From: Methanoculleus chikugoensis
GTDB lineage: Archaea; Halobacteriota; Methanomicrobia; Methanomicrobiales; Methanoculleaceae
Length of the DNA stretch: 64,000 nt
Direction: 5' to 3'
NCBI RefSeq assembly: GCF_019669965.1
Contig: NZ_AP019781.1
Location: 1,302,001 to 1,366,000 of the forward strand
Position numbers and translations under genes: made by a program. Positions 42,156 to 58,835 of the stretch are shown piece after piece (position 1 is the first letter of the stretch; every line of letters starts with the position of its first letter). The notes under the pieces are model-generated. The model was not told the origin of the DNA and searched no databases. It worked only from the letters and a program-made list of their open reading frames with translations.

Positions 42156-42869
42156 ATGCACAGAATCTCCGTAAATGACATGCAGGTCGACGTGGTCCGA
42201 AAGGACATCAAGAACCTGCATCTTGGGGTATACCCTCCTGAAGGCCGGGTCAGGGTGGCGGCGCCGTTACGCGTGGACGATGAAGCGGTGCGACTGGCGG
42301 TGATCACGAAACTGCCGTGGATCAAACGGCAGCAGACCCGATTCAGGAGCCAGGAACGCCAGAGCCCGCGAGAGTACACCTACCGCGAGACACACTACTA
42401 TCTCGGTAAACGCTATCTGCTAAATGTTATCGAGGATGCAGGCCCTTCCCGGGCTGAGGCTAATAAAGCAAGGATTGACCTGTATGTTCCGGTGGGAAGC
42501 GATGCCGAGAAACGAGAACAGGTCATGCTCAAGTGGTATCGCAAGGAGCTCAAAGCCCTGCTCGTGCCGCTGATCACGAAGTGGCAGGATACGCTCGGGG
42601 TAACGGTCGACGACTGGAGAGTTAAAAAGATGAAGACAAAGTGGGGCAGTTGCAACATCGAAGCCCGGCGGATCTGGCTGAATCTGGAACTCGCAAAAAA
42701 ACCGGTTCAGTGCCTTGAATACGTTGTTGTGCACGAGATGGTGCACCTCCTTGAACGAAATCATACCGACCGGTTCAGAGAACTGATGGATCAGTTCATG
42801 CCACAGTGGCGGCACTATCGGGATGTGCTAAATCAGGCCCCACTGGGCCACGAGACCTGGAGTTACTGA
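42156..42869 (+). CDS. DUF45 (YgjP-like) metallopeptidase linked to the type I RM operon
   Basis: The 237-residue protein has WGSCNIEARRIWLNLEL and the zinc-protease motif HEMVHLLERNH (His193, His197, with Glu194), the signature of YgjP/DUF45 proteins related to SprT/WSS1. It begins directly at the base after the hsdR stop. DUF45 genes are frequent companions of type I RM loci; a role in processing HsdR or clearing DNA-protein crosslinks has been discussed but is not settled. Confidence 0.88.
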   Translation: MHRISVNDMQVDVVRKDIKNLHLGVYPPEGRVRVAAPLRVDDEAVRLAVITKLPWIKRQQTRFRSQERQSPREYTYRETHYYLGKRYLLNVIEDAGPSRAEANKARIDLYVPVGSDAEKREQVMLKWYRKELKALLVPLITKWQDTLGVTVDDWRVKKMKTKWGSCNIEARRIWLNLELAKKPVQCLEYVVVHEMVHLLERNHTDRFRELMDQFMPQWRHYRDVLNQAPLGHETWSY

Positions 42870-44616: not shown

Positions 44617-45375
44617 ATGGCGCTGGAACTAGCCATTGCAGGAGTTGTGTTACTTGGGGTATTTCTTCTTACTGCTTTTAGCAGGCGCGTGTGGGAAAAT
44701 TTTCAGAAACAGAGTTTCTTATCGGTTTTTTCAACTTGGAGCTTGGTTACTGCAGGAGGATCCTTGGTAATTATTGGCACTCTGATGTATTCTGGACTCC
44801 CCGCACCAGAACTAACTCCCCTTGAGCGAGACGGTCTCGTCTTCTTTAGTATCGGTCTTGCATTACTCGGATGGGCTCTGAATTGGACTCAGAATAGAGA
44901 AAATACCTGTGATTCCCCTAGCCAGAATATAGATCAATCCCAATCCCGTTCGACAGAAGAGAATCAAACCCGAAGTCAGGATGCGGGGGAAGGGATTCGA
45001 ACCCTTGAACTCCTTCGAGACTGGACCCTAAATCCAGCGCCTTTGACCTGGCTCGGCAACCCCCGCGTGCATATATGTCGGCACACGGAGCATTATACTT
45101 GTTCCCCTCTCCTCCCGGCACCCCGAATCCCGCCGTTTATCCATCGCCGTCCCGGGCATATCCTGCCGGCTCCCGGCACCCGAACCTCCGGCAGCGACCC
45201 GGCATCTGCGGCGCGCAACGGCCCCGGAACGGGCGTGGAAAATTATATTGTTTGTAAAATATATTATATAATATACAAAATTAACCCGGGGGTGCATTGT
45301 GCCGGGGGTGCTTCACCGGTGCATTCCGGCCGAATCGCGCCCGGAATGGTAACAACAAAACATTTATTGAATTGA
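44617..45375 (+). CDS. small membrane protein whose frame runs on through the tRNA-Leu region
   Basis: Only the first ~119 residues look like a protein: two membrane helices (3-25 and 40-62) plus a third hydrophobic stretch (72-88) and a polar tail. From 44974 the frame reads the attachment-site repeat, then the antisense of tRNA-Leu, and ends at 45375 in non-coding DNA. If the element excised by recombination between the two repeats, the frame would continue at 43365 and stop after two codons, giving about 129 residues. The 252-residue form is therefore probably an integration product. A TATA-like stretch near 44575-44595 precedes it. Confidence 0.45.
   Translation: MALELAIAGVVLLGVFLLTAFSRRVWENFQKQSFLSVFSTWSLVTAGGSLVIIGTLMYSGLPAPELTPLERDGLVFFSIGLALLGWALNWTQNRENTCDSPSQNIDQSQSRSTEENQTRSQDAGEGIRTLELLRDWTLNPAPLTWLGNPRVHICRHTEHYTCSPLLPAPRIPPFIHRRPGHILPAPGTRTSGSDPASAARNGPGTGVENYIVCKIYYIIYKINPGVHCAGGASPVHSGRIAPGMVTTKHLLN
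44974..44997 (+). repeat. putative attachment site copy overlapping the tRNA-Leu 3' end, right
   Basis: This copy is identical over 24 bases to 43341-43364. Bases 44982-44997 are the discriminator, acceptor 3' strand and part of the T arm of tRNA-Leu on the minus strand. The intact tRNA remains on this side, as expected when an element integrates and restores the gene's 3' end. Confidence 0.75.
44982..45066 (-). tRNA. tRNA-Leu (TAG)
   Basis: The 85-base class II tRNA has acceptor stem GCGGGGG/CCCCCGC, anticodon stem CTGGA/TCCAG with loop TTTAGGG (anticodon TAG), a long variable arm (TCTCGAAGGAGTT) and T arm AAGGG-TTCGAAT-CCCTT. Discriminator A, no CCA encoded. A TATATATG stretch on the plus-strand side near 45070-45076 lies just upstream of its 5' end. 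Confidence 0.95.
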
Positions 45376-45405
45376 TCGACCGTATTCTCCTGTAGTTGAA
45401 CTGAA
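45067..45405. other. upstream region of the eha-fwd operon
   Basis: This gap holds the AT-rich dyad at 45251-45279, two GGGGTGCA-like direct repeats (near 45289 and 45305), the inverted repeat ATTCCGG/CCGGAAT around 45325-45350, and a TATA-like CATTTATTGAATTG at 45361-45374, about 35-45 bases before ehaB. No gene is present other than the run-on frame from 44617. Confidence 0.45.
45251..45279. promoter_or_regulatory. AT-rich dyad upstream of the eha operon
   Basis: ATATTATATAATAT is a perfect 14-bp palindrome flanked by TTTGTAA and ACAAA, extending the dyad to 29 bases. It lies about 130 bases before ehaB. It may be a regulator site for the hydrogenase operon or a strong TBP site serving either strand; sequence alone does not decide. 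Confidence 0.35.
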
Positions 45406-45891
45406 ATGCTGAGCGAGCTCCTCCATATCCCGGCAGCGGCGATTATCAGCTGGATCCTCTTCGTAGCCGTCGACATCTTCTTCAAACTGCCGGAGGCGGG
45501 AGGAGTCGTCGGAGCCACGGCAATCGCCCGGGATATCGAGGCCGGCGGCGGCGATATCTCCGGCGGCACCATGATGGGGAACATCGTCTGCTCCCCCGAC
45601 GCCTCGGCCGGGACGCTCCTTGCCGCCTGCGGCGTCTACCTCGCCGGCATCCCCGGCGGGCTCGCGGCGGCCGTGATGGTCTATATCGGCAACCGTATCT
45701 GCTACGACCCCGGCTACGCCGGGACCACCGGAGCGGTCCTCGCCACGTTCGTCATCTACGGCTTCACCCAGGTCGGGTTTGCCGCCTCGGACTTCATCGC
45801 GGGGATGGTGATTGCCATCCTCACCATCCAGGGGCTCTCCCATACCCACGCGAGCCGGCTCCTTGGACGGCTCTGGAGGATCCGGGAGTGA
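45406..45891 (+). CDS. ehaB: energy-converting hydrogenase A subunit B (membrane)
   Basis: The first gene of the Eha operon encodes a 161-residue membrane protein with about four helices and the segment GGDISGGTMMGNIVCSPDAS. Size and position match EhaB. Eha is a membrane [NiFe] hydrogenase that uses the sodium or proton gradient to reduce ferredoxin with H2. No ehaA-like gene precedes it here, so EhaA is either absent or encoded elsewhere. The 3' end overlaps ehaC. Confidence 0.72.
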   Translation: MLSELLHIPAAAIISWILFVAVDIFFKLPEAGGVVGATAIARDIEAGGGDISGGTMMGNIVCSPDASAGTLLAACGVYLAGIPGGLAAAVMVYIGNRICYDPGYAGTTGAVLATFVIYGFTQVGFAASDFIAGMVIAILTIQGLSHTHASRLLGRLWRIRE

Positions 45892-46127
45892 TCGCGCTCT
45901 ACGTTGTGGCCGCGATCGCGGTCTATGCCGCCGCACGAGCCATCCTCGAGCGGAACACCGGCCGGAGGTTCCCGTACGCGAACGTCCTGAACTTCGCCGT
46001 CGCAGGCAGCCTCGTCCTGCTGCTCGATCACCCGATCACCCTCGTTGCGGCGGCAGCCTACTTCGTCGGCTCCACGCTTGAGGCAAACGCCATCGCAAGC
46101 ACCTACGCCGGGAGGATGAAGCGATGA
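45888..46127 (+). CDS. ehaC: energy-converting hydrogenase A subunit C (membrane)
   Basis: The 79-residue product has two membrane helices (2-20, 33-62) around a basic loop (ERNTGRRFPYANV). GTG start overlaps ehaB by 4 bases (GTGA) and its own end overlaps ehaD. Size and position fit EhaC; the assignment relies on gene order. Confidence 0.68.
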   Translation: MIALYVVAAIAVYAAARAILERNTGRRFPYANVLNFAVAGSLVLLLDHPITLVAAAAYFVGSTLEANAIASTYAGRMKR

Positions 46128-46354
46128 TCCTTGCGTTAGAGATTGCCTTCGGGCTCATCGCGCTCGCGGGCGCTCTTTCCGCCGCGCTCCTCAAGGACCC
46201 CTACGCGAAGCTGATCGCGCTCGGGATCCTGGTCTCCGGCGCCCTGCCGTTCATCGTGGACCGCGGCTACCTGGACGTCGCGATCGTGGCCTCCCTCATC
46301 GCCCCGATCTCGACGATATTCGTCCTCATGGCCGTCCGGAGGGCCGAGACGTGA
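46124..46354 (+). CDS. ehaD: energy-converting hydrogenase A subunit D (membrane)
   Basis: This 76-residue hydrophobic protein has three helices (LEIAFGLIALAGALSAALL; YAKLIALGILVSGALPFIV; VAIVASLIAPISTIFVLMAV). It resembles small MnhF/MnhG-type subunits of Mrp antiporters and Ech-type hydrogenases, and matches EhaD by order. It overlaps both neighbours by four bases. Confidence 0.68.
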   Translation: MILALEIAFGLIALAGALSAALLKDPYAKLIALGILVSGALPFIVDRGYLDVAIVASLIAPISTIFVLMAVRRAET

Positions 46355-46590
46355 ATACCACATTCATCCTCGGTCTTGCCATCCTCCTGATCGGCGTCTT
46401 CTCCGTCGCCTTCGTGCGGCCGAAGACCTACATCGCCCGGCTGATCAACCTCGAGATCCCGGGGTGGGGCCTCCTCCTCGTCATGCTCGCCTATGACGAA
46501 GCCCTGGCGCTCATGACGTTCATTGCCGTCACCGCAATCAGCACGTTCGTCATCGTCCGCCTGATGGAGTGGAGGGATGCATCGTGCTGA
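46351..46590 (+). CDS. ehaE: energy-converting hydrogenase A subunit E (membrane)
   Basis: The 79-residue protein has two or three helices, with the conserved-looking segment IARLINLEIPGWGLLLVMLAY between them. GTG start in an overlap with ehaD. By order and size this is EhaE. Confidence 0.67.
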   Translation: MNTTFILGLAILLIGVFSVAFVRPKTYIARLINLEIPGWGLLLVMLAYDEALALMTFIAVTAISTFVIVRLMEWRDASC

Positions 46591-47039
46591 TCATCACGCG
46601 GATCTCACGGATCCTCTCCAACTTCAAGAACCTCGCTGCGCTCTTCGCCGGTGCGTGCATCCTCGTCTCCCTCATCGGGATCCTCTCCCTGCCGCTCGCG
46701 TTCGAGGAGAACCAGCTCTACCCGAAGACGCGGCTCGACCCCACCAGCGGGCTCTACCCCTACGACCGGGGAGGCGTGCCGTTCGGCACAACGGAGGTCA
46801 TCTGCCAGTACCCGGAGAACTCGCCCTACGCGGGTTACGTCACCACCTACTTAACCCCGCTCTCACTCTACCTCTCGGAGAACACGCTCTACATCGGCAC
46901 AACGATCGTCGCTCACCCGGGCGGGATCATCGACGAGATCCTCTACAACACCCGGGGGGCCGACACCGTCGTCGAGACGAGCATCCTCTTCACGGCGTTT
47001 GCGATCGCATCATACCTCTACCGGAGGGAGGAAGAATGA
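46584..47039 (+). CDS. ehaF: energy-converting hydrogenase A subunit F (membrane)
   Basis: The product has about 151 residues: an N-terminal helix (FAGACILVSLIGILSLPL), an outside loop rich in Tyr and Pro (LYPKTRLDPTSGLYPYDRGG), and a C-terminal helix ending YLYRREEE. I choose the GTG at 46584 because GGAGGG lies eight bases before it; a GTG at 46569 adds five residues. Order and length match EhaF. Confidence 0.68.
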   Translation: MLIITRISRILSNFKNLAALFAGACILVSLIGILSLPLAFEENQLYPKTRLDPTSGLYPYDRGGVPFGTTEVICQYPENSPYAGYVTTYLTPLSLYLSENTLYIGTTIVAHPGGIIDEILYNTRGADTVVETSILFTAFAIASYLYRREEE

Positions 47040-47638
47040 TCATCCCCGAGTACTCGCTCGGCCTCCTCGTGGCGTTCGCAGCGATGGGAGTCGCGTTCTT
47101 CGCCATGATGCGGGAGACCGACGGCTTCCACCGGCTCCTCCTCACGGACCTCATCGAGGTCGTCAGCCTCGCGTTCATCGCGCTGATCGGCACCGACCTC
47201 GCGGAGGCCCTCATCCTCCCGGGCCTTGTCGTCGGCACGTCCGAGTTGATCGCGCTCTCGGAGATCTACCGGATCAAGGAAGGCTACACGCGGCCGCCCG
47301 ACGCCGGCCTGCAGATCGAGGTGATGGAGAGCGCACCCGGCATCCTTGCCGCGCTCCTCGTCGTCTACGGCATCGTCCTCTCCGGGTTCTCCGGCGGGGT
47401 CGTCGCCGGCCTCGGCGTGCTCTTCTACCTCCTCTGCCGCGGCCATAACGAGCGGTTCGAGCTGATCGAGACGGCGAGCGGCTACTCGTGGGCGCTCTGG
47501 ATCATCGCGTTCTTCATCTTCATGATCCTCCCGCAGTACTGGTTCTTCGCGGTCATGCTCTCGGGCTCCGCGATCCTCGTCAAGGTCATGGCCAAGATGT
47601 CGCTCATCGGCACCATGCGGGGTGGTCCGAATGCCTGA
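47036..47638 (+). CDS. ehaG: energy-converting hydrogenase A subunit G (membrane)
   Basis: The 200-residue protein has about six helices, starts MIIPEYSLGLLVAFAAM, and carries a short cytosolic loop (SEIYRIKEGYTRPPDAG). Its start overlaps the ehaF stop. Length and order match EhaG. Confidence 0.7.
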   Translation: MIIPEYSLGLLVAFAAMGVAFFAMMRETDGFHRLLLTDLIEVVSLAFIALIGTDLAEALILPGLVVGTSELIALSEIYRIKEGYTRPPDAGLQIEVMESAPGILAALLVVYGIVLSGFSGGVVAGLGVLFYLLCRGHNERFELIETASGYSWALWIIAFFIFMILPQYWFFAVMLSGSAILVKVMAKMSLIGTMRGGPNA

Positions 47639-48284
47639 TATCGGCGGCGAACCTCTCTTCGTGCTGGAGTTCGGGGATATCCTCCATTACTACACCCCCT
47701 ACACGATCACGCTCTTCCTGCTCGCGCTGATCTTTACGGGCCTTGCTATCGCAAGCAGGCCTGAACGGCAGATCGATATCGCGTTCGGGGGCGACGCCTA
47801 CTACGCGAAGGAGACGACGGTCTCGGAGATGCGGTTCCGGCGGTTCATGGCGATCGCCTGCGGCCTTGCAACGATGGGGGCGATGGGGAGCGGGGACCTC
47901 TTCAACTTCACGCTCTTCGTCTCCCTCGTCGGGATCGCGAACATCGGCATCGTCGCGGCGGTCAAAAGCCGCCACGTCCTCGACGCCGCATACGAATACG
48001 GCATCGTCGCCATGGTCGCCACCCTGCCGCTATTCGGGGGCGCGGCCCTGGTCGCTGCGACCACCGGCACGCTCGCGATACCGGTCCTTGCGGGCGGCGG
48101 CTTTGCGGTCCCGCTGGTGGCGAAAGCCTTCCTCGCCCTCGGTGTCATCGGAGAGGGGATGGCGCCGTTCTACGCGGCGAAGGCCGAGATGTTCCGGGCG
48201 CCCGGCGCCCCCTACGTCATCATGTGTTCCCTCTCGTCGCTGTTGATCTTCCTCCGCGTCGTGGAGATTGTCATAACCATCTGA
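47631..48284 (+). CDS. ehaH: energy-converting hydrogenase A subunit H (antiporter-like membrane)
   Basis: The 217-residue membrane protein has about five helices and the segments MRFRRFMAIACGLATMGAM and SGDLFNFTLFVSLVGIANIG, which recall the antiporter-like (NuoL/N-type) subunits thought to carry ion flow. The ATG at 47631 overlaps ehaG by 8 bases. Matches EhaH. Confidence 0.72.
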   Translation: MPDIGGEPLFVLEFGDILHYYTPYTITLFLLALIFTGLAIASRPERQIDIAFGGDAYYAKETTVSEMRFRRFMAIACGLATMGAMGSGDLFNFTLFVSLVGIANIGIVAAVKSRHVLDAAYEYGIVAMVATLPLFGGAALVAATTGTLAIPVLAGGGFAVPLVAKAFLALGVIGEGMAPFYAAKAEMFRAPGAPYVIMCSLSSLLIFLRVVEIVITI

Positions 48285-48289
48285 TAGCC

Positions 48290-48493
48290 ATGAAGAAAAC
48301 GACAGTTACCTACGGACTCGCGGCATCGGCCCTTGTCATCGTCGTCGCATGGGGGCTGCTCGCGGCATCCCTCATACCGCTCTGGGCGGCCGAGACGGCC
48401 ATCGTGATCGCCTTTCCCGTACTGGTGCTCTTCCTGGGGCTCTGGTGGCGGGCGCCGGGCGGAGAAGAGGACATCCCCTTCATAGGATACTGA
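48290..48493 (+). CDS. ehaI: energy-converting hydrogenase A small membrane subunit (EhaI-like)
   Basis: The 67-residue protein has two helices (YGLAASALVIVVAWGLLAAS; AIVIAFPVLVLFLGLWW) and an acidic end (GGEEDIPFIGY). Start chosen at the ATG five bases after the ehaH stop. Assignment as EhaI is by position between ehaH and ehaJ. Confidence 0.6.
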   Translation: MKKTTVTYGLAASALVIVVAWGLLAASLIPLWAAETAIVIAFPVLVLFLGLWWRAPGGEEDIPFIGY

Positions 48494-48494
48494 C

Positions 48495-49340
48495 ATGATC
48501 GAGTACCTGGTATTTGCAGCAGCATTCGGCCTCCTCCTGCTGGGGCTCCACCGGAAAGTCATCGCACGGGTACAGATGCGACCGGGCCCCCCGGTCTGGC
48601 AGGAAATCCTCCACGCCCTGAAGTTCTCGTTCAAGAGCACCTGGGTCCCGAAGACGGCGAGCAGCCTGCTCTACGTCGGGGTCGTGCTCATCGGCATCGG
48701 CATATGGAGCGCCGCGCTCTTCGTCGTCCTTGCGGGCGAGAGCATCCTGATCCTCTTTGCGATCTACATGCTGCACAAGGTCGTCGAGCACGGGTTCGGG
48801 CTCTCGTCGGGGTCGCCCTACGGGAAGTTCGGCGGCGTCCGGTCGGTCATATCCGCGGCCTCCGAGATCCCGCTCTTCGTCACGATCGCCGCGATCTACT
48901 TCTTCACGGACTCGCTCCTCCTCCGTGATATCATCGCCTACCAGGCGATCCACGGCCCGCTCCTCCTGATCGCACCGCCCGCCGCGATCGCTATGTACCT
49001 CGTCATCCTCTCGAAACTGCCCTACGGCCCCTTCTCGATCGTCGAGTCCAAAGAACTCGTGAGCGGCTACAAGACCGAGCACTTCGGTGTCTGGCGGGCC
49101 GGGATCTCCGTCATCGACGGGCTTAAGACGTTCGTCCTCCTCTTCGCGTTCGTCGCGATCTTCATCGGGGCCGTGCCGTTCTCTCTGGCCCTCGTCATCA
49201 TGACGGTCGTCCTCGTATCGCTCTCGTTCGTCTGCGCGGTGACGCCCATGCTCTCGCCGTTCGACAGTGTCACTGTCCAGGGGATCGTCACCCTGCTGAT
49301 GGTCGGCTACGCTGCGGTTCTCTGGTGGGTGATGCCATGA
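48495..49340 (+). CDS. ehaJ: energy-converting hydrogenase A subunit J (NuoH-like)
   Basis: The 281-residue protein is the NuoH/HycD-like membrane subunit. It has about eight helices, KVIARVQMRPGPPVWQEI (the GPP motif near the quinone/cluster interface in the superfamily), and VESKELVSGYKTEHFG, the conserved acidic loop. It connects the hydrogenase head to the ion-translocating arm. Confidence 0.85.
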   Translation: MIEYLVFAAAFGLLLLGLHRKVIARVQMRPGPPVWQEILHALKFSFKSTWVPKTASSLLYVGVVLIGIGIWSAALFVVLAGESILILFAIYMLHKVVEHGFGLSSGSPYGKFGGVRSVISAASEIPLFVTIAAIYFFTDSLLLRDIIAYQAIHGPLLLIAPPAAIAMYLVILSKLPYGPFSIVESKELVSGYKTEHFGVWRAGISVIDGLKTFVLLFAFVAIFIGAVPFSLALVIMTVVLVSLSFVCAVTPMLSPFDSVTVQGIVTLLMVGYAAVLWWVMP

Positions 49341-49579
49341 TCCGCAGGATGGTGCTCTTAGGGGCGGTCATCTACATCGTCATAGCGATCCTGCAATGGG
49401 TGACGAACCGGACGGTTTTCGCTGAGGCAGTGGTCCTCTCCGGGATCCTCGCGGCCCTCTCGCTCGTCCACTACGCCTCAGATGAAAGGCGGCTCAAACA
49501 GCTCGAGATGGCGTTACTCTGGCTGGTGATCGGCCTCTTTGTCGTCTACGCCCTCGCAAAGGCCGGAGGGTTCGTATGA
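49337..49579 (+). CDS. energy-converting hydrogenase A small membrane subunit (EhaK/EhaL-like)
   Basis: The 80-residue protein has a helix at 6-25, one at 33-50 and one at 62-78. ATG chosen in the ATGA overlap with ehaJ. In other methanogens one or two small membrane genes (ehaK, ehaL) occupy this place; which one this is cannot be told from the sequence. Confidence 0.6.
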   Translation: MIRRMVLLGAVIYIVIAILQWVTNRTVFAEAVVLSGILAALSLVHYASDERRLKQLEMALLWLVIGLFVVYALAKAGGFV

Positions 49580-49962
49580 CCGGCTACCTCTACGAGAAGG
49601 ATCTCCGGCAGATGAAGTACACCATCCTGACGAGCACGAAACACGACGAGACCGTCCGTGCGATTGCAGAGCGCCTCGGGATGAGCGATGCCAAACTCCG
49701 GATGATGCTGATCCGGCGGTTCGACATGTCCCTGCTTGAAAACCTCGAATCCCGGTGGCAGATGGGGCAGCGGCACGCGAACGACGGCGACCCGGTCGCG
49801 GAAGAACTCGGCTACGAACTCTTCACCCGGTTCATCCCCCTCGTGGATACGGAAACGATGCAGACGATCTACAGTGATACGACAGCAATGACACAGCAGA
49901 TGCCCTTTGAAGAGGCGATCGCGAGAGGAAAAGCACGGGTCCGGGAGGCGATCCGCCCATGA
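49576..49962 (+). CDS. ehaM: energy-converting hydrogenase A subunit M (DUF1959)
   Basis: The 128-residue soluble, helical protein matches DUF1959/EhaM by length and appearance: KHDETVRAIAERLGMSDAKLRMMLIRRFDMSLLEN. It lies just before the catalytic subunits. Its function in the complex is unknown. Four-base overlaps on both sides. Confidence 0.8.
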   Translation: MTGYLYEKDLRQMKYTILTSTKHDETVRAIAERLGMSDAKLRMMLIRRFDMSLLENLESRWQMGQRHANDGDPVAEELGYELFTRFIPLVDTETMQTIYSDTTAMTQQMPFEEAIARGKARVREAIRP

Positions 49963-50414
49963 GCATCCTCCAGAAGATCAAGAACACCGTCCGCTCCCGG
50001 TCGATCCACGTCGCCTACGTCGACGTCGGGTCGTGCAACGGCTGCGACATCGAGGTGCTCGCCTGCCTCGCGCCGCGCTACGACATCGAGCAGTACGGAA
50101 TCTACGTCCACAACAACCCCCGGGAGGCCGACGTCCTCCTGGTGATCGGCTCCGTTACCCCCCAGTGGGTGGACAAACTCCGCGAGATCTGGGATAAGAT
50201 CCCGGATCCGAAAGTTGCCGTTGCCATCGGCAACTGCCCCATATCGGGATGTGTCTATGCCCGGAGAGGTACCTTGACGAGCCCACCCGCCGAGAAGTAC
50301 ATACCGATAGCCGCACAGGTGCCGGGCTGCCCGCCCCGCCCTACGGAGATATTGAACGCCATACTCTCGGTCGCGCCGCTGATATTCAAAGACTACGAGG
50401 AGAAACAGCCATGA
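49959..50414 (+). CDS. ehaN: energy-converting hydrogenase A small (Fe-S) subunit N
   Basis: The 151-residue NuoB-like subunit binds the proximal [4Fe-4S] cluster: DVGSCNGCDIEV (Cys26, Cys29), GNCPISGC (Cys93) and PGCPP (Cys124). It passes electrons between the NiFe site in EhaO and ferredoxin-type subunits. All four ligands are present. Confidence 0.9.
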   Translation: MSILQKIKNTVRSRSIHVAYVDVGSCNGCDIEVLACLAPRYDIEQYGIYVHNNPREADVLLVIGSVTPQWVDKLREIWDKIPDPKVAVAIGNCPISGCVYARRGTLTSPPAEKYIPIAAQVPGCPPRPTEILNAILSVAPLIFKDYEEKQP

Positions 50415-51499
50415 AGAAGACTGTCGACGTCTCCATCCCGCTCGGCCCGATGCACCCTTGCTGGAAGGAGCCCGTCCGCCTCAAGTGCGAGACGGCGGGC
50501 GAGCGGGTGCTCCGCGCCGAGGTCGAACTCGGCTACATGAAGAAGGGGATCGAGCGGATCATGCAGGGCCGCCCCTGGCAGGAGGTGATGTTCCTCGCCG
50601 AACGGGTCTGCGGCATCTGCTCGGTCGTCCACAACATGGTCTTCATCGAGGCGATGGAGAAGATCAGCGATATCGCCGTCCCGCCGCGGGCGGCCTACCT
50701 CCGGGTCGTCGCGAACGAACTCGACCGGATAGCAAGCCACATCCTCGCGAACTTCTCCTACTGCTACACGATCGAGCACGAGACGCTCGCGATGTACCTC
50801 CTGAATACCCGGGAGACGGTGCTCGACAACCTGGAGCGGCTCACGGGCTCGCGGATCAACACCGCCTACATGATCCCGGGCGGCGTCCGGTTCGACCTCC
50901 TCCCCGGGGACGCCGCGGCGATGCTCGCCGACCTCGCGAAGGTGGAGGAGGAGATGAGGCGGCATACCCGGATCTTCGAGACCGGCCCGCTGATTGCGCT
51001 CAGGAGCAAAGGGATCGGGTTCATGAGCCGGGAAGATGCGATCCGCGCCCACACCGTCGGCCCCACCGCCCGGGCGAGCGGTGTCGAGGACTGCGACCTC
51101 CGCCTCCGCCACCCGACCTACCGCGAACTCGGGTTTACGCAAGTAACCCGGACGGAGGGCGACAACTTCGCCCGGGTGATGGTCCGGTTCCAGGAGGTCT
51201 TCCAGAGCATCGACCTGATAAGGAAGTGCATCGACACCCTCCCCGAAGGCCCCATCCGGGGCGGCGGGTTCTGCAAGGCGGGGGAGACGTCGTATGCCGG
51301 TGAAGCCCCCCGGGGCGAGCTGACCTACACCATCAGGACCGACGACTACGGCAGGGTGGTCGATATCGCGATCCGGACGCCGTCGGTCATGAACATCGAG
51401 GCCTGCGCCCACGCGATGATCAAGGACGCCGCGTCGATCGCCGACGTGACGTCGACGTTCATCAGCAGCGACCCCTGCATCGCGTGCAACGAGAGGTGA
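50411..51499 (+). CDS. ehaO: energy-converting hydrogenase A large (NiFe) subunit O
   Basis: The 362-residue catalytic subunit has both nickel-binding ends: RVCGICSVVH (Cys67, Cys70) and DPCIACNER (Cys356, Cys359). The protein stops right after this second motif, so no C-terminal maturation peptide would be cleaved, as in other Ech/Eha-type enzymes where the protein ends shortly after the motif. HypD at 6.2-7.2 kb would help insert the metal centre. Start overlaps ehaN (ATGA); the frame upstream to 50249 is not coding. Confidence 0.92.
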   Translation: MKKTVDVSIPLGPMHPCWKEPVRLKCETAGERVLRAEVELGYMKKGIERIMQGRPWQEVMFLAERVCGICSVVHNMVFIEAMEKISDIAVPPRAAYLRVVANELDRIASHILANFSYCYTIEHETLAMYLLNTRETVLDNLERLTGSRINTAYMIPGGVRFDLLPGDAAAMLADLAKVEEEMRRHTRIFETGPLIALRSKGIGFMSREDAIRAHTVGPTARASGVEDCDLRLRHPTYRELGFTQVTRTEGDNFARVMVRFQEVFQSIDLIRKCIDTLPEGPIRGGGFCKAGETSYAGEAPRGELTYTIRTDDYGRVVDIAIRTPSVMNIEACAHAMIKDAASIADVTSTFISSDPCIACNER

Positions 51500-51503
51500 A
51501 GAG

Positions 51504-52112
51504 ATGCGATCGATCATCTACTATCTGCGAGAGTTCCTCCGACCGGAATGGATCCGGAAGTTCTTCTTCGCGAAGACCGCGCCGCTCGAGACCCCCTCCT
51601 ACTTCAAGGGCTACCCGACCCTGACGGGGAACGAGTGCACGGCGTGCCTCTCCTGCATGATGATCTGCCCCGCGCCCAAGGCGATCGCGGTTCTCCGCAC
51701 GAGGGACGGGTGGGAGCCGGAGATCTACCCCGGCCACTGTATCCGGTGCGGCCTCTGCGTCGAGGCGTGCCCCGAGGGCGTTCTCTCGAGCGGCCGGATC
51801 CTCGACGTCACCCGGCGCGACGGGACGGCGTTCTGGTCGTGGTATCACCTCCAGGTCGACGACAACCTCTGCATGCGGTGCGGAAACTGTTGCGTCTCAT
51901 GCCCGGTCAACCGGGAGATCGACCCGCAGCTTGCAGGGTCGGGGACATCCTCAAGCGACGAGGTGATCATGCGGGTCGAGGGCGGCCGCGTGCGGATCCT
52001 CCACGAGGAGAAGTGCACGGGGTGCAAGACCTGCGAGACCCAGTGCCCCAACCGCGCGATCCGGGTCGCCCGGATGGTGGAAGGGGTGCAGATCGGGGAG
52101 GCGGAGGTATGA
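51504..52112 (+). CDS. ehaP: Eha-associated polyferredoxin-like subunit
   Basis: The 202-residue protein carries four cluster motifs: CTACLSCMMICP, CIRCGLCVEACP, CMRCGNCCVSCP and CTGCKTCETQCP. The first three differ slightly in spacing to the fourth Cys. It is the likely electron exit to soluble ferredoxin or directly to the downstream Fwd complex, whose first gene starts in its stop codon (ATGA). It corresponds by position to EhaP or a fused ferredoxin subunit. Confidence 0.78.
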   Translation: MRSIIYYLREFLRPEWIRKFFFAKTAPLETPSYFKGYPTLTGNECTACLSCMMICPAPKAIAVLRTRDGWEPEIYPGHCIRCGLCVEACPEGVLSSGRILDVTRRDGTAFWSWYHLQVDDNLCMRCGNCCVSCPVNREIDPQLAGSGTSSSDEVIMRVEGGRVRILHEEKCTGCKTCETQCPNRAIRVARMVEGVQIGEAEV

Positions 52113-52498
52113 GTTTCCTCATGATCACCGGGAGGACGGTGAACCAGGGCGTGACCGTCGAGAACAAGACGTCGCCCGAGTACGCGGCCGAGACCTCGAC
52201 CTGCTTCATGCACGAGTTCGATATGATGGAACTCGGGCTCGACGACGGAGACGCGATCCGGGTGACCGGGCCGTGCGGCGATGTCGTCATGCGGGCGGCG
52301 GCGTCGCTGGAAGTGGAGATGGGAACCGTCTTCGTCCCCTACGGGCCCTACGCAAACCACATCGTCGCCGCCGGCACCCGGTCCACCGGGATGCCGGACT
52401 TCAAGTCCCACGAGGTGGAGATCGAACCGACCGACGAAGAGCCGAAACTGGTTCACAAACTGATGGAAGACCTGGGAGGCCTCGCCTATGATCGTTAA
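52109..52498 (+). CDS. fwdD: formylmethanofuran dehydrogenase subunit D
   Basis: The 129-residue FwdD is a small molybdopterin-dinucleotide-binding-type subunit: EFDMMELGLDDGDAIRVTG, then MGTVFVPYGPYANHIV and TRSTGMPDFK. It completes the pterin site of FwdB. The start at the ATG in the ehaP overlap gives the standard N-terminus MSFLMITGRTVNQGV. Confidence 0.92.
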   Translation: MSFLMITGRTVNQGVTVENKTSPEYAAETSTCFMHEFDMMELGLDDGDAIRVTGPCGDVVMRAAASLEVEMGTVFVPYGPYANHIVAAGTRSTGMPDFKSHEVEIEPTDEEPKLVHKLMEDLGGLAYDR

Positions 52499-53777
52499 GG
52501 ACGCGGTCTGCCCGTTCTGCGGATGCCTCTGCGACGACATCGAGGTGGAGGTCGAAGGGAACCGGGTGGTCGCCGTCACGAACGCCTGCGAGCTCGGGAT
52601 GACGAAGTTCATGGGCGAGAAGAGGCTGAAGAACCCGATCCTGCGCGTCGAAAACGAGTGGAAGGATATCACCTACGACGAGGCCATCCGGTACGCCGCC
52701 GATATGCTTCTATCCGCCGAGCGGCCGCTCCTCTACGGGTGGAGCGGCACCCACGGGGAGGCGCAGTGCGTGGGGGTGCATATGGCCGAACTCATCCATG
52801 GCGTCATCGACAACACCTCCTCGGTCTGCCACGGCCCCTCGATCCTCGCCATCCAGGAGGTCGGGCACCCGGGATGCACGCTCGGGGTGGTGAAGAACCG
52901 GGCGGATCTCGTCATCTACTGGGGATCGAACCCGATCGACGCCCATCCCCGCCACCTTTCGCGTTACACGCGGTACGCGGAAGGGTTCTTCCTCGAGAAC
53001 GCCTTCCGCGACCGGAAGGTGATCGTCGTCGACGTCCGGAAGACCGAGACCGCGAACATCGCCGACGAGTTCGTCCAGATCAAACCCGGCGGGGACTATG
53101 CGGTGCTCTCGGCGCTCCGGGCGATCGTCCAGGGGAAGACGGACACGATCCCGCGGACGGTCGCGGGCGTCACCCGCGAACAGCTTATCCGGGTGGCAAA
53201 CCTCTGCAAATCCGCGAAGTTCGGGGCGGTTTACTTCGGGCTCGGGCTCACGATGACGCAGGGGAAGTACAAGAACATCCGGAACGCCATCGAATTCATA
53301 TCGGAGTTGAACCGGCACACGAAGTTCACCATCTCGGCGATGCGCGGCCACTACAACGTCTACGGTTCGAACGAAGTGAACACGTGGATGACCGGCTACC
53401 CCTTCGGGATCGACTTCTCGCGGGGGATCGCCTTCTACAACCCGGGAGAGACGACGGCGGTGGATATTCTCGCCCGGAAGGAGTGCGACGCGGCGCTGAT
53501 CGTCGGGAGCGACCCGGCCGCCCATTTCCCGCGGAAGTGTCTCGAACACCTCGCCGAGATCCCGGTCGTCCAGCTCGACCCCTACCCGAACGCCACCACC
53601 GCGTTCTGCAACGTCCAGATCCCGGTCGCGGTGACCGGTATCGACGCGGAAGGAACCGCCTACCGGATGGACGGGGTGCCGATCCGGACGAGGCGAGTCC
53701 TCTCGACCGACTACCTCTCCGACGAGGAGGTTCTCTCCCGGATGTATGCCCTGATGCAGGAGGAACCCCGTCCATGA
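52488..53777 (+). CDS. fwdB: formylmethanofuran dehydrogenase catalytic subunit B
   Basis: FwdB reduces CO2 to formate at a tungsto- or molybdopterin. The 429-residue protein has the N-terminal cluster Cys set VCPFCGCLC ... NACELG and the active-site segment SSVCHGPS, in which the metal ligand is Cys114 (not selenocysteine, which some methanogens use). Metal choice (W or Mo) cannot be read from the sequence. Its start overlaps fwdD by 11 bases. Confidence 0.95.
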   Translation: MIVKDAVCPFCGCLCDDIEVEVEGNRVVAVTNACELGMTKFMGEKRLKNPILRVENEWKDITYDEAIRYAADMLLSAERPLLYGWSGTHGEAQCVGVHMAELIHGVIDNTSSVCHGPSILAIQEVGHPGCTLGVVKNRADLVIYWGSNPIDAHPRHLSRYTRYAEGFFLENAFRDRKVIVVDVRKTETANIADEFVQIKPGGDYAVLSALRAIVQGKTDTIPRTVAGVTREQLIRVANLCKSAKFGAVYFGLGLTMTQGKYKNIRNAIEFISELNRHTKFTISAMRGHYNVYGSNEVNTWMTGYPFGIDFSRGIAFYNPGETTAVDILARKECDAALIVGSDPAAHFPRKCLEHLAEIPVVQLDPYPNATTAFCNVQIPVAVTGIDAEGTAYRMDGVPIRTRRVLSTDYLSDEEVLSRMYALMQEEPRP

Positions 53778-55474
53778 CCGAACTCCTGGTGAAGAACGCC
53801 TGCGTGATCGATCCGCTCAGCGGGATCAACGGCGAGGTGATGGATCTTGCCATCCGGGACGGGAAGATCGTCGAGGAGGTGAGCGATGCCGCAGAGGTGG
53901 TCGACGCTCACGGGATGCTCACGATGCCGGGCGGGATCGACTCCCACACCCATATCTGCGGGACGAAGGTGAACTTCGGGCGCTACATGAGCCCGGAGGA
54001 TATGCGGGCGGGAAGAACGCCCCGCCGGGGGGCGATGCACGCCACCTCCGGCTACAGCGTCCCGACGACCTACGGCAACAGCTACCGCTACAGCGTGATG
54101 GGCTACACCACCCTGCTCGAAGGCGCGATGGCGCCGCTCGAAGCACGGCACACCCACGAGGAGTTCTCCTACACGCCGCTGCAGGACACGATGGCGAACA
54201 CCCTCTTCGATGGGAACTGGGGGATCCTGGAGGCGATCCGCGACGGCGATACGAAACGGGTCGCCGCCATCATCGCCTGGACGCTTTCGGCCGTAAAAGG
54301 GTTCGGCGTCAAACTCACGAACCCCGGCGGCACCGAGGCCTGGCAGTGGGGCAAGAACGTCACCTGCATCCGCGACCCGGTGCCCTACTTCGAGGTGACG
54401 CCGGCCGAGATCATCCGGTCGGTCGTGGAGGCGAACGAACTCCTGCACCTCCCGCACTCGGTGCACCTCCACTGCAATAACCTCGGCACCCCGGGGAACT
54501 ACACCTGCACGCTCGGGTCGTTCGGCCTCATCCCCGACCTGAACAAAAAGAGGCAGACACTGTATGCGACCCATGTTCAGTTCCACGCCTACGGCGGTTC
54601 GGGGTGGAAGGATTTCTGCTCGAAGAGCGAGCCGATTGCGAACTTCGTCAACATGCGCCCCCAGATCGTCATGGATATGGGGCAGGTGATGTTCGGCCGG
54701 ACGACGACGATGACCGCCGACGGGCCGATGGAGTTCAACCTCTACCGCCTCCATCACGACAAGTGGAGCAACCACGACGTGGAACTCGAGACCGGTTCGG
54801 GGATCATCCCGGTCGTCTACCGGCGCAAGAACCTGGTCAACTCGATCATGTGGGCGATAGGCCTCGAACTCGCCCTCCTCACGAAGAGTCCCTGGCAGTG
54901 CCTGCTCACGACGGACAACCCGAACGGTGCGCCGTTCGTCAAGTACCCGGAGATCATCGCTCTCCTGATGAGCAAGCGGTACCGCGACGCCGAGTTCGCG
55001 ACGATTCACCCCGATACGGGGTCCCGGGTGCCCCTCCCGGCGATCGAGCGCGAACTCGACTGGCACGAGATCGCGGTGATGACCCGGGCCGGTGCGGCGC
55101 GGGCGCTCGGGATCCAGGATCTCGGGAAAGGACATCTCGCTCCGGGTGCCGATGCGGACGTCGCCATCTACCCCCTCAAGATCGACGAGGTCGACCCGTC
55201 GGCTGAGTACCAGAGGGTGATCGACGGGTTCAGCCGGACCGAATATACGATCAAGCGGGGCCGGGTCGTCGCCCGGCGGGGCGAGTGCCTGGTCGACGGG
55301 AGCAACGCCACGTTCTGGGTCGCGCCGAAGGTCTCGGAGGCATACGATATGGGGAAAGATCCCGACTTCATCGAGAAGTTCGACCGCTACTACACCGTCC
55401 GTATGAGGAACTACCCGGTGCAGGATGAGTACCTGACCCGGAGCCGGTGCATCGAGACGGAGGCCGACCTATGA
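53774..55474 (+). CDS. fwdA: formylmethanofuran dehydrogenase subunit A (amidohydrolase)
   Basis: FwdA condenses formate, delivered by an internal tunnel, with methanofuran at a dinuclear zinc site. The 566-residue amidohydrolase-type protein has HTH ligands in GGIDSHTHICG (His58, His60), the Lys segment GFGVKLTNPGG for the bridging carboxylated lysine, the His segments HLPHSVHLHCNN and VQFHAYGG, and LTTDNPNG carrying Asp. Overlaps of four bases link it to fwdB and fwdC. The longer open frame reaching back into fwdB is not used. Confidence 0.96.
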   Translation: MTELLVKNACVIDPLSGINGEVMDLAIRDGKIVEEVSDAAEVVDAHGMLTMPGGIDSHTHICGTKVNFGRYMSPEDMRAGRTPRRGAMHATSGYSVPTTYGNSYRYSVMGYTTLLEGAMAPLEARHTHEEFSYTPLQDTMANTLFDGNWGILEAIRDGDTKRVAAIIAWTLSAVKGFGVKLTNPGGTEAWQWGKNVTCIRDPVPYFEVTPAEIIRSVVEANELLHLPHSVHLHCNNLGTPGNYTCTLGSFGLIPDLNKKRQTLYATHVQFHAYGGSGWKDFCSKSEPIANFVNMRPQIVMDMGQVMFGRTTTMTADGPMEFNLYRLHHDKWSNHDVELETGSGIIPVVYRRKNLVNSIMWAIGLELALLTKSPWQCLLTTDNPNGAPFVKYPEIIALLMSKRYRDAEFATIHPDTGSRVPLPAIERELDWHEIAVMTRAGAARALGIQDLGKGHLAPGADADVAIYPLKIDEVDPSAEYQRVIDGFSRTEYTIKRGRVVARRGECLVDGSNATFWVAPKVSEAYDMGKDPDFIEKFDRYYTVRMRNYPVQDEYLTRSRCIETEADL

Positions 55475-56238
55475 AGGTCACGCTCGCGATGAAACCAGCG
55501 GCGACGGGTTTCATCCCCATCGAGGCGGAGTCGATCGTCCCGAAGAACTTCCTCTCCGGCACCGACCTCTCGGTCTGGCGGGGGAATCGGGAGCTTCGGC
55601 TCGACGAGCTCTTCTCGGTCTCGGTGGAGGGGAGCGCCGACTGCTCAGAGGATGTCGAGGTCGTCCTCTCGGGGGACACGTTCCGGTTAAAAAGGGTCGG
55701 CGAGTACATGGACGGAGGGAAGATCACCGTCCTCGGCGGTATCGGGATGCACTGCGGCAACTTCATGAGCGGCGGGACGATCGAGATCCACGGGAACGCC
55801 GACGGCTGGCTCGGCCGGGAGATGGCGGGAGGGACCATCATCTGCCGGGGCGACGCCGCCGACTACTGCGCCTCGGGATACCGCGGCGGCCGGAAGGGGA
55901 TGAAGGGAGGCGCCGTGGAGGTCTTCGGCCGTGCCGGGGATTTCCTCGCGGAGAGCATCGCCGGCGGCACGGTGATCGTGCACGGCGATGCCGGGGATAT
56001 GACCGGGGCGGAGATGCGCGGCGGTACGCTCGTCGTCCACGGGAACTGCAGCCGCCCGGCCGCGAACATGAAGGGCGGCTCCTGCTACGTCTACGGCACC
56101 GCGCGGGGGATGATCCCCACCTTCAGGAAGATCGGGACGGTACAGCACGACGGGCGTACGCTTATCCAGTTTGCCGGCGATCTTGCGAACCGCGGAAAAG
56201 GAAACCTTTTTGTGAAGGACTACGAATATCTGGACTGA
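55471..56238 (+). CDS. fwdC: formylmethanofuran dehydrogenase subunit C
   Basis: The 255-residue protein has the right-handed beta-helix of FwdC and the glutamate synthase C-terminal domain, with repeated GG(T)xxVxGxAG-type turns (AGGTIICRGDAADY, IAGGTVIVHGDAGDM, MRGGTLVVHGN). It holds FwdA and FwdB together. ATG in the overlap with fwdA is the start. Its stop overlaps the start of the next small gene (ATGATG-like TGATG). Confidence 0.95.
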   Translation: MKVTLAMKPAATGFIPIEAESIVPKNFLSGTDLSVWRGNRELRLDELFSVSVEGSADCSEDVEVVLSGDTFRLKRVGEYMDGGKITVLGGIGMHCGNFMSGGTIEIHGNADGWLGREMAGGTIICRGDAADYCASGYRGGRKGMKGGAVEVFGRAGDFLAESIAGGTVIVHGDAGDMTGAEMRGGTLVVHGNCSRPAANMKGGSCYVYGTARGMIPTFRKIGTVQHDGRTLIQFAGDLANRGKGNLFVKDYEYLD

Positions 56239-56387
56239 TGGTCAGGCACGAGTGTGGGTTCGAGGCCCCGATCCACTGCAAGCGGTGCGGGAGGCCGCTG
56301 GAGAACAACGAGCGCACGGGCCTTTACTGCCCGCACTGCGGAAGAAGAGTGAGTATGCTCTGCCCGGGCTGCGGGCGTCTCTGGTGA
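56238..56387 (+). CDS. 49-residue double zinc-ribbon protein at the end of the fwd operon
   Basis: The tiny product reads MVRHECGFEAPIHCKRCGR, then LYCPHCGRR and LCPGCGRLW: four cysteine pairs or half-pairs, enough for two zinc sites. It starts in the fwdC stop (TGATG), so it is translated with the operon, and its frame ends at 56387, five bases before the convergent DUF1922 gene. A role in Fwd or Eha assembly is only suggested by location. Confidence 0.65.
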   Translation: MVRHECGFEAPIHCKRCGRPLENNERTGLYCPHCGRRVSMLCPGCGRLW

Positions 56388-56391: not shown

Positions 56392-56664
56392 TCAGACCCG
56401 GTTCTTCACCCACCGGGCATACTGTGCCCTGAGCTGGCGGATGTCCTGTTCCGTCAGGTCTTTTTTCCCGGTCTGGTGCAGGTAGGACTCGAGCTGCTCC
56501 ACCACCCGTTCCGCGTCCTGGAAGTCGTCGGCGTCCAGGTAGACCGGCACCCGCTGGACGTTGATCACCTCGCCGCACATCGGGCAGAGCCTCCAGCGCT
56601 GATAACGGTCGACATAGTTGAAGGTCTTGCAGCCCGGACAGCGGATGACGAGATACATGATCAA
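56392..56664 (-). CDS. DUF1922-type zinc-ribbon protein
   Basis: The 90-residue protein has a zinc ribbon (CPGCKTFNYV ... CPMCGEVINVQ; Cys9, Cys12, Cys27, Cys30) followed by helices (DAERVVEQLESYLHQ). It matches archaeal DUF1922 proteins of unknown function. An ATG two codons inside (56658) is an alternative start. Convergent with the fwd operon. Confidence 0.78.
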   Translation of the reverse strand: MIMYLVIRCPGCKTFNYVDRYQRWRLCPMCGEVINVQRVPVYLDADDFQDAERVVEQLESYLHQTGKKDLTEQDIRQLRAQYARWVKNRV

Positions 56665-57208: not shown

Positions 57209-58747
57209 TCACCCTCTCCGCGGCTTGAGATCCCTCACCGCCGGCCCGTGGATCACCCTTCCGTCGGCATCGTAGCGGGAGCCGTGGCAGGGGCAGTCCC
57301 AGGTCTCCTCGGCGCTGTTCCACGCGGCGACGCACCCGAGGTGGGTGCAGGTTGGGTTGACCGCGTGAACCCGCCCTTTCTCGTCCCGGAAGACGCCGGC
57401 CTTCTTCCCCTCGATCATCAGGACCCTTCCCTCGCCGGGTGCGACGTCCGCGAGGTCCCCGGCCGGCCGGGATATCGCGCCGCCGATGTACTTCTCGGCG
57501 ACCTCGATGTTGTGCGCGAGGAACCGCCAGGCGGATGCCGCCGGTTTGAACCGGTTGGGGGCGTAGACTTCCGCCCAGGGGTTCTCGCGCCCCCGGATCA
57601 TGTCGGTGATGATCGTTGCAGCCGCGGTGCCGTTGGTCATCCCCCACTTCCGGAATCCGGTCGCGATGTAGACGTTCTCGTGGCCGTCGGCGAGCCTGCC
57701 GATGTAGGGGACGCCGTCGATGGTGATGTAGTCCTGCGCCGACCACCGGTAGTCGACGGACGTTACCGGGTAGACCGACCGGGCGTAGGCCTCGAGGTCG
57801 CGGTAGTGCCTCCGCGTGTCCACGCCCTCGCCGGTCCGGTGCTCCATGCCGCCGACGATGACGAGTTCACCGTCGCCGGCAGGCTGCGATCGCCAGGAGT
57901 GGACGGGGCCATCGGCGTTGATGAAGAGCCCGTCCGGGAACGGCTCGTCGATCCGGACACCGAGCGCGTAAGACCGCGACGGCTCCATCCGGGCGAAGTA
58001 GAACCCGGGCGCATCGTAGAAGGGGTAGTGGGTCGCGAGAACCACGCTCTCTGCCGTGACGGTTCCCGACGTCGTCCTGACCGTGCAGCGGCCTCCCCCG
58101 TCCTGCACCTCGAGCGCCCGGGTCTTCTCGTAGATCCGGCTCCCGTCGCCGGGGATCAGCGACGCCAGGTGGAGGAGGTACTTCACTGGGTGGAACTGCG
58201 CCTGGTTCTCCATGACCACCGCGCCGTAACTCCGGGCGGGGAGCGGGATCTCCTCGACGAACGCCGCAGGAAGCCCGAGACTCCGTGCCGCATCCGCCTC
58301 GGCCTCGACCTTCTTCCGCTCCACTTCCGACTCCGCGTAGGTGTAGGCCGGTTTCCGGATGAAGTCGCAGGCGATAGTATGCTCCCGGACGAGCGATGCT
58401 ATCGCCTCGATCGCCGCCTGGTTTGCTTCGGCGTACTGTTGCGCCAGCCTGCCCCCGAACCGGTCGATGAGATCCTTGTAGATCAACCGGTGGAGCGCCG
58501 TGACCTTCGCCGTCGTGTGCCCGGTCACCCCCCGGGCGATCCGGTCCCCCTCGATCAGGGTGACCGCATAACCGGCCCGTTTGAGCAGGACGGCGGCGGT
58601 GATCCCGACGATACCCCCGCCCACGACCGCCACGTCGGTCTCCAGGTTCCCCGGCAGCGGAGGATGCGGCGTCTCCGCCGCGGTAGTCTCCATCCAGAAC
58701 GATCCGTGCCTGCCCGGCAGATCATATACATCCGGCCAATGCTCCAT
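57209..58747 (-). CDS. FAD-dependent oxidoreductase with C-terminal Rieske domain (paralog 1)
   Basis: The 512-residue protein joins a DAO/glycine-oxidase-like FAD domain ([21 protein letters not shown] near 40, GHTTAKVT) to a C-terminal Rieske [2Fe-2S] domain: [11 protein letters not shown] and [12 protein letters not shown] give the Cys-His pairs. The substrate is unknown; electron transfer to or from the Rieske centre is expected. I start at the ATG (complement 58745-58747) preceded by a GGGG-type ribosome site; the frame further up covers a promoter (ACTATATATGC). It is about 60 percent similar by eye to the next gene, a tandem duplication. Confidence 0.85.
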
Positions 58748-58835
58748 GCCCAGCCCCTTTCGCCGGGAGCATATATAGTGTGGGTATGGGGCCGGGCCGG
58801 AGAGCGGTGCAGTGCACTGTCCCCCCACCCCGGGG

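Follow-up and report, generated by a model that had tools for sequence, protein, structure and literature searches.

The neighbourhood of eha hydrogenase genes and formylmethanofuran dehydrogenase (fwd or fmd) genes, together with the idea that Eha feeds Fwd, has been in print since 2009. Anderson et al. (2009) reported that eha adjoins fmd in M. marisnigri, M. labreanum, and M. hungatei, and proposed that Eha reduces ferredoxin for that Fmd, rather than bifurcation (PMC2686161). An anaplerotic role was later suggested for the Eha-linked Fwd copy (Gilmore et al., 2017; PMC5563889), and Fwd sets adjoining Ech, Eha, Hdr/Wolfe-cycle, and Fdh genes have been described in a Methanoculleus (PMC11201294, PMC12008871). 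A 2024 review names ferredoxin, Hdr, and an F420 reductase as partners of Fwd and regards direct fuelling of Fwd by H2 oxidation as incompatible on potential grounds (PMC11656701). In this study, we analysed an operon joining the two gene sets at positions 45406-56387 of a 64-kb window of Methanoculleus chikugoensis DNA (the whole stretch analysed, positions 1,302,001-1,366,000 of a genome that is a 2.62-Mb single contig). Its 19 plus-strand genes are ehaBCDEFGHIJ, a gene at the ehaL position, ehaMNOP, fwdDBAC, and a 49-amino-acid zinc-ribbon gene. We found that EhaP appears to combine, in a single fused chain, a hydrogenase subunit of the NuoI/FpoI kind with FwdG, the electron-transfer subunit of Fwd. 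This FwdG-like half and the strict co-inheritance of Eha with its own type of Fwd are the new observations here; no report of an EhaP-FwdG fusion was found in term-matched passages of the open-access literature.

Results

The two halves of EhaP

The ehaP gene (51504..52112, plus strand) encodes a protein with four CxxCxxCxxxC motifs of the [4Fe-4S] kind, in which a NuoI/FpoI-like half (approximately residues 1-105) is followed by a FwdG-like domain (residues 113-191). Residues 2-100 aligned to positions 4-105 of the 135 positions of FpoI (1.6e-17, below the cut-off of that model). In a PDB sequence search, residues 22-95 matched the MbhN-type chain 6cfw_N and residues 26-95 matched the formate hydrogenlyase chain 7z0s_F (subunit 6; 3.6e-7), and two multi-cluster polyferredoxins outscored both chains through repeated short matches. 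No NuoI or MbhN chain was among the best 50 matches listed by each structural aligner, and the structural matches listed for this half came from HdrA and a sulfite reductase, in both cases from ferredoxin domains (Z 8.0-8.6). The hydrogenase kinship of the N-half therefore rests on sequence and gene position.

The C-half was then compared with the PDB by itself, and six sequences scored better than 1e-5. The first was 9sfi_U (6.9e-14), an 80-residue "4Fe-4S binding protein" from an entry that also holds FwdA, followed by the FwdF chain 7bkb_K (3.6e-12) and the FwdG chain 5t5i_G (6e-12). Both 9sfi_U and 5t5i_G aligned to the C-half over most of their length, with the long loop between the clusters included. 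An AlphaFold model of EhaP had a mean predicted local distance difference test (pLDDT) score of 80, rising to ~90 across most of the FwdG-like half, and its best Foldseek match was again 5t5i_G, the FwdG of M. wolfeii. VIA-align superposed 79 of the 80 residues of this chain on the model (Z 13.2, root-mean-square deviation 1.9, 39% identity). M. hungatei FmdG came next (Z 9.9), and then chain 8rja_F of the Ethanoperedens Fwd (Z 9.4).

As a control, a profile of the C-half was run against 23,838 open reading frames (ORFs) of the fetched loci, taking the best 22 stretches for each half with EhaP itself filtered out. The profile scored 54 bits against FwdG-like genes from two Hdr-linked sets and 25.6 bits against the next other ferredoxin (best stretch in each case). 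In the fetched eha and eha-type fwd stretches, no FwdG above 25.6 bits was found besides EhaP itself. All 118 EhaP loci examined, with some genomes sampled twice, scored for both halves, and the lowest three C-half scores came from contig-cut loci (L138, L116, and L154).

Beyond the order Methanomicrobiales, the search covered 392 genomes of the window's own phylum. The N-half alone was found in genomes G254 and G303 (L197/L200, 113 and 103 bits); in G254 (L203), fwd genes adjoin hdr-like genes, which were named by eye. A two-part EhaP was found in G355 and G484, with C-half scores of 55-59 bits. In G355, a similar fused EhaP accompanies the sole Fwd found, whose FwdB is encoded 26 kb from eha in a fwdDBAC set. 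No F or G subunit was recognised beside that set, the remaining genome not having been searched for FwdG.

Co-inheritance and gene order in Methanomicrobiales

Eha and the FwdA type found beside it (eha-type) were scored in 135 genomes with completeness of 90% or more and contamination of 5% or less. Presence thresholds were set by eye (E <1e-85 for EhaO and <1e-175 for FwdA), and partial matches (such as those in G059, G092, G110, and G063) were counted as present. Both were detected in 106 genomes and neither in 27, while two had Eha only and none had the Fwd only (Fisher p 2e-26, ignoring kinship). G199, one of those with Eha only, was ruled out as a real exception since its contig ends at ehaP; the other, G128, retains fwdD, fwdB, and fwdC at this locus without fwdA. 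Genera g14, g30, g34, and g36 each hold genomes with and without the pair, so Eha and Fwd were lost or gained together several times. In our view, this co-inheritance argues more strongly for joint function than adjacency does by itself.

In a tree of 40 FwdA sequences chosen from the fetched loci, eha-type FwdA formed one clade (100/100). The eha-linked Fwd was ruled out as a recent copy of the Hdr-linked one, since their FwdA proteins are 48% identical, compared with 69% for the Hdr- and Ech-linked proteins, and fall in separate clades. Where fwd has separated from eha, the FwdA proteins formed a single clade inside the eha type (100/100), which excludes unrelated replacements and looks like one relocation.

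Gene order was examined with 150 listed matches each for EhaO and eha-type FwdA across the 232 genomes of the order. Both were found in 132 genomes; 18 with an EhaO match only and 18 with a FwdA match only were omitted from the adjacency count. The two genes were adjacent on one strand in 118 of the 132 genomes placed, so the outcome that the preliminary description of this locus had named as refuting its reading, with the operons apart in most relatives, did not arise. The spacing was ~2.2-2.4 kb in 104 of these, ~0.6 kb in 13, and 4.2 kb in one. Since the 118 cases span six families, the 2.3-kb linkage was ruled out as a peculiarity of Methanoculleus. The 13 genomes with the ~0.6-kb spacing are 12 of the genus Methanocorpusculum and G107, and fwdD and fwdB do not lie in between.

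In the 14 non-adjacent genomes, the genes were far apart within one contig (five) or on different contigs (nine). The latter are five genomes of genus g21 and four others, among which G093 is truly apart; in this genome (family f4; L131) the zinc-ribbon gene directly follows ehaP, making it a second case of separation. In genera g18, g20, g21, and g22 of family f5, the eha operon runs from ehaB to ehaP and then to the zinc-ribbon gene, with fwd elsewhere. The eha-type fwdDBAC genes stand tail-to-tail with the other fwd set in four of five f5 regions (G102, G113, G119, and G120), and in the fifth (G111) fwdB and fwdA alone were recognised.

The order ehaB-P, fwdDBAC was found in 26 of the 35 regions around EhaO of relatives, one of which (L082) has a 1.9-kb insert before fwdD. 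Among genome-collection loci (the best 80 of 123 found), fwdD directly follows ehaP in 73. The remaining seven comprise three contig ends, an insert before fwdD (L165), the zinc-ribbon gene as the next gene (L131 and L174), and a locus in which no ehaP was found (L162). An exact 4-base overlap of ehaP and fwdD occurs in 23 of 27 true pairs in one set, two further rows of which are FwdF and not EhaP, and in 62 of 74 in another; the two sets share genomes and each includes the window. The tight eha-fwd arrangement is not due to chance. The zinc-ribbon gene is also tied to the operon: where fwd lies elsewhere, it directly follows ehaP in L085, L087, L091, L093, L095, L131, and L174 and lies 2 kb off in L089, whereas no copy was detected in the loci fetched from families f3 and f6.

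A separate observation concerns G024 (L204 7507-9234), in which the best eha-type-like FwdB lies far from eha in a 576-amino-acid open frame. This frame exceeds FwdB alone, and fusion with another domain is possible.

Organisation of the operon

With the starts chosen, all 18 junctions of the operon are overlaps or gaps of at most five bases. From ehaB to the zinc-ribbon gene they measure -4, -4, -4, -22, -4, -17, +5, +1, -16, -4, -4, -4, +4, -4, -11, -4, -4, and -1 bases, and the ehaP/fwdD junction (-4) reads ATGA. This agrees with the preliminary description, and the 19 genes lie where it had placed them. The three longest overlaps would shrink with in-frame alternative starts. A promoter-like block and leader before ehaB (45345..45405, plus strand) is for the most part conserved across an alignment of 14 loci from two genera, least so in the second genus, and may serve as the promoter. 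The 120 bases preceding fwdD have a G+C content of 61-69%, compared with 39-53% before ehaB, and ehaP lacks any A/T run of seven or more. The whole eha-fwd unit is probably read as one transcript. A convergent DUF1922 gene (56392-56664) lies 4 bases past the end of the operon.

All genes of the operon are on the plus strand; the subunit letters from ehaC onward were assigned by gene order. The first gene, ehaB (45406..45891), had no Pfam or NCBIfam match and is conserved by position and its own profile. It is followed by ehaC (45888..46127; PF09882, 8.6e-27), ehaD (46124..46354; PF09881, 4.8e-23), ehaE (46351..46590; PF09880, 1.6e-23), ehaF (46569..47039; PF09879, 7.2e-57), and ehaG (47036..47638; PF09878, 6.2e-69). 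Membrane subunits related to NADH dehydrogenase are encoded by ehaH (47622..48284; NADH-dehydrogenase-N-related, PF10125, 1.6e-90) and ehaJ (48495..49340; NADHdh family, PF00146, 2.7e-28). Two small membrane proteins were placed by position and their own profiles only, one at the ehaI position (48290..48493) and one at the ehaL position, which could be ehaK (49325..49579). The DUF1959 protein, which we take to be EhaM (49576..49962), matched PF09218 at 2.5e-6 and 28.1 bits (cut-off 24.3). The hydrogenase small subunit is encoded by ehaN (49959..50414; PF01058, 1.3e-26) and the [NiFe] large subunit by ehaO (50411..51499; PF00346/PF00374).

The Eha part thus has a small subunit, complex-I-like membrane subunits, and the DUF2105-2109 and DUF1959 subunits, families that we take as marks of Eha. 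The Ni-binding pairs RVCGIC and DPCIAC of EhaO are intact, and their four cysteines are invariant in 16 sequences. EhaA and EhaQ-T of class I methanogens were not recognised around the operon among ORFs of at least 45 amino acids, with no profiles for them run.

After ehaP come fwdD (52109..52498; PF01568, 2.1e-18, above cut-off; NF042908, 104 bits, below its cut-off of 175), fwdB for the W/Mo-pterin catalytic subunit (52488..53777; TIGR03129, 613 bits, cut-off 328), fwdA for the amidohydrolase subunit (53774..55474; TIGR03121, 787 bits, cut-off 393), and fwdC (55471..56238; TIGR03122, 228 bits, cut-off 131). Subunits A, B, and C thus exceeded the curated cut-offs. FwdB keeps the N-terminal cysteine motif, which presumably holds an Fe-S cluster, and the cysteine before HG (CHGPS), which we take to be a ligand. 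In the stretches read, the C-half of EhaP is the sole match for the electron-transfer subunit G of this Fwd, with a weak reverse search. None of the 19 operon genes encodes a FwdF polyferredoxin or Hdr, both of which accompany the other Fwd set of the genome, and none was named as FdhF or HycB of formate hydrogenlyase. The last gene encodes a double zinc ribbon of 49 amino acids (56238..56387; PF12773, 1.3e-5, just below cut-off).

Two further features of the window lie outside the operon. On the minus strand, 57209-58828 and 58836-60419 encode tandem similar oxidoreductases dependent on flavin adenine dinucleotide, each with a C-terminal Rieske domain. On the plus strand, 38991-42869 holds a Type I restriction R subunit followed immediately by a YgjP-like metallopeptidase gene.

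The other Fwd sets and hydrogenases of the genome

The genome has three full fwdA genes. The Hdr-linked set lies upstream of mcrB in the order fwdG-fwdF-hdrC-hdrB-hdrA-mvhD-fwdD-fwdB-fwdA-fwdC. HdrB, HdrC, FwdA, and McrB were named by models above cut-off, while FwdF, HdrA, and MvhD matched their models below it; the FwdG-like gene had no model match at 1e-20 and was named by place and similarity. The third set consists of fwdDBAC followed by a moeA-like gene, with an ech operon ~10 kb away on that strand (L010 3210-8917 (-) and L023 7432-12543 (-); 462-477 kb of the genome itself); moeA and most ech genes were named by eye. Each of the three Fwd sets adjoins a different electron source, a pattern already published for a Methanoculleus (PMC11201294). 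The genome also encodes Vhu/Mvh-like A and G genes and Frh.

The preliminary description had suggested that electrons pass through Eha instead of the heterodisulfide-reductase route. This does not hold, because the genome encodes a complete Hdr-linked Fwd that has a FwdF and a FwdG-like gene to itself, in addition to the Mvh/Vhu-like and Frh hydrogenases. The Eha-Fwd unit is thus an addition to the Hdr route.

Discussion

Gene order, the two-part EhaP, the catalytic motifs, and co-inheritance are direct observations. We consider that the operon probably encodes a membrane-bound, ion-gradient-driven enzyme that converts H2 and CO2 to formylmethanofuran through direct wiring by EhaP, beside the Hdr route. 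In this enzyme, Eha would oxidise H2 at the EhaO/EhaN site, and an ion gradient acting through its membrane subunits would push the electrons to low potential. The electrons would cross the four Fe-S clusters of EhaP, two in the hydrogenase-exit half and then two in the FwdG half, and reach the pterin through the FwdB cluster. FwdB would reduce CO2 to formate and FwdA would couple it to methanofuran. No diffusible ferredoxin would be needed. Complex formation, electron passage, and direction are all predicted from genes. The preliminary description had proposed direct channelling through a polyferredoxin-like subunit, and the resemblance of the C-half to FwdG supports this proposal. Direct wiring is likely because G is the electron-transferring subunit of Fwd and no other G was found in the stretches read. 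The same description had deduced from gene order a fixed ratio of Eha to Fwd; such a ratio cannot be essential, because one f5 clade has separated the gene sets and kept both.

The Eha-linked unit would work beside the Hdr-linked Fwd and most likely serves to start or replenish the pathway when bifurcation is leaky or carbon is withdrawn. Eha is said to have an anaplerotic role, reportedly shown in Methanococcus by Lie et al. in 2012, and a priming or top-up role is probable in line with it. At in vivo H2, the gap to formylmethanofuran is ~200 mV (-300 vs -500 mV; PMC3087415), and the ion gradient would pay for it.

Several observations weigh against such an enzyme. The genes fwdD and fwdB are gone from the operon in Methanocorpusculum-like genomes, and eha and fwd lie apart in one clade and in single genomes. 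In G128 (L096 4020-7158), the order is ehaP-fwdD-fwdB-fwdC; fwdA is absent, and ~90 bases occupy its position. Dicluster ferredoxins are all alike: VIA-align scores from Z 9.9 to 9.2 are tied, unrelated ferredoxins reach up to 9.2, and 5t5i_G alone stands clearly above the others. A whole-EhaP profile ranked three FwdF chains above 9sfi_U (4th), 5t5i_G (7th), and the FwdG chain 7bkb_L (9th). A search of the whole genome with its own FwdG-like protein ranked EhaP third at 31.8 bits, barely separated from FwdF (32.2) and from an unrelated frame (30.2). By whole-sequence score, the C-half profile gave 32 bits for one short ferredoxin encoded in the eha locus of G355. In addition, 35 of 79 EhaP homologues (L101-L180) have A, H, Q, S, or E where the first cluster motif (window 51636-51668) would have its second cysteine, with CxH in five example motifs. 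The EhaP wire may therefore differ in those sequences, and an altered ligand is possible. The EhaP of class I methanogens is described as 6[4Fe-4S] (PMC3087415). In one transcriptome, ehaB and ehaD fell and the eha-adjacent fwd was not differentially expressed (PMC12008871).

It is possible, though rather doubtful, that Eha reduces soluble ferredoxin that the neighbouring Fwd then uses, with clustering for co-regulation only and the FwdG-like half as a ferredoxin docking or relay domain. The soluble-carrier explanation has been proposed (PMC2686161, PMC5563889), and Eha elsewhere is held to reduce ferredoxin (PMC3087415). It gains from the clade that lives with split genes and from the reverse search, in which EhaP is not distinguished from other ferredoxins. 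However, the added domain of EhaP is closer to FwdG than to generic ferredoxins, and no other FwdG was found with eha-type Fwd in the fetched stretches. The first Fwd structure, as summarised in the review, also has G as the electron-transferring subunit, onto which the F polyferredoxin docks (PMC11656701). The wiring of EhaP is direction-neutral, and energy-converting hydrogenases are reversible. The unit could in principle run in reverse, with formylmethanofuran oxidation driving H2 release and ion export under excess reductant, like formate hydrogenlyase. We regard this as highly unlikely, because these hydrogenotrophs consume H2, and at the low in vivo H2 the potential difference cited above calls for the gradient to push electrons uphill. 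Least probable of all is that Eha-Fwd replaces Hdr bifurcation as the main entry route of CO2, as was argued for at least some members of the order (PMC2686161). The complete Hdr-linked Fwd beside mcr and the Mvh/Vhu-like and Frh hydrogenases of this genome argue against replacement. Moreover, M. hungatei, which is without Mvh (PMC2686161), has a solved Fdh-Hdr-Fmd complex (PDB 7bkb), and neither Eha nor eha-type Fwd was detected in 27 of the 135 good genomes.

We lean slightly towards a further electron module for Fwd, namely a membrane hydrogenase that has acquired FwdG as part of its exit subunit. It would form an ion-gradient-powered H2:CO2 formylmethanofuran synthase that works without free ferredoxin, and across Methanomicrobiales it is passed on together with a Fwd of its own. 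If this is true, a FwdG-carrying hydrogenase driven by an ion gradient would remove the objection on potential grounds raised in the review. It would also bear on the long-standing question of how the uphill first step of methane formation is primed and replenished in hydrogenotrophic methanogens. The proposal predicts that culturable Methanoculleus form such a complex in the membrane; cultured species with the operon include M. marisnigri JR1 (G051) and M. sediminis (L112). Ecologists could use an EhaP that bears a FwdG half as a marker for such capacity.

Comparison with known systems

In formate hydrogenlyase, CO2/formate chemistry at a pterin enzyme is wired to a complex-I-like [NiFe] hydrogenase. 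Its subunit 6 (7z0s) resembles the N-half of EhaP at the 3.6e-7 given above, and the likeness is an analogy only: the eha-fwd operon is not a member of that group. In the operon's enzyme, formate would be condensed with methanofuran, and the expected direction is opposite. The neighbourhood described by Anderson et al. (2009) in three genomes shows the same linkage and the same idea that Eha serves the adjoining Fwd. It differs in that ferredoxin is the carrier, the passages on the linkage mention no FwdG-like part of EhaP, and EhaM is called absent in the order, whereas DUF1959 scored above cut-off here (PMC2686161).

The F420-reducing Fwd of Ca. Ethanoperedens thermophilum (8rja) is likewise a Fwd with another partner electronically attached, but this partner is an F420 reductase and the enzyme works in the oxidising direction (PMC11656701). 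Its FwdA is the nearest solved FwdA (653 bits), and the C-half of EhaP is similar to its chain F. In the Fdh/Mvh-Hdr-Fwd megacomplexes of M. hungatei (7bkb) and M. marburgensis (PMC12350162), Fe-S subunits form a physical connection between Fwd and its electron source, as proposed here for EhaP. There, the link consists of FwdF and a separate FwdG (7bkb chains K and L), and the source is Hdr flavin bifurcation. Unlike these complexes, the eha-fwd operon has no FwdF, its FwdG is apparently fused to a hydrogenase subunit, and its source would be an ion gradient.

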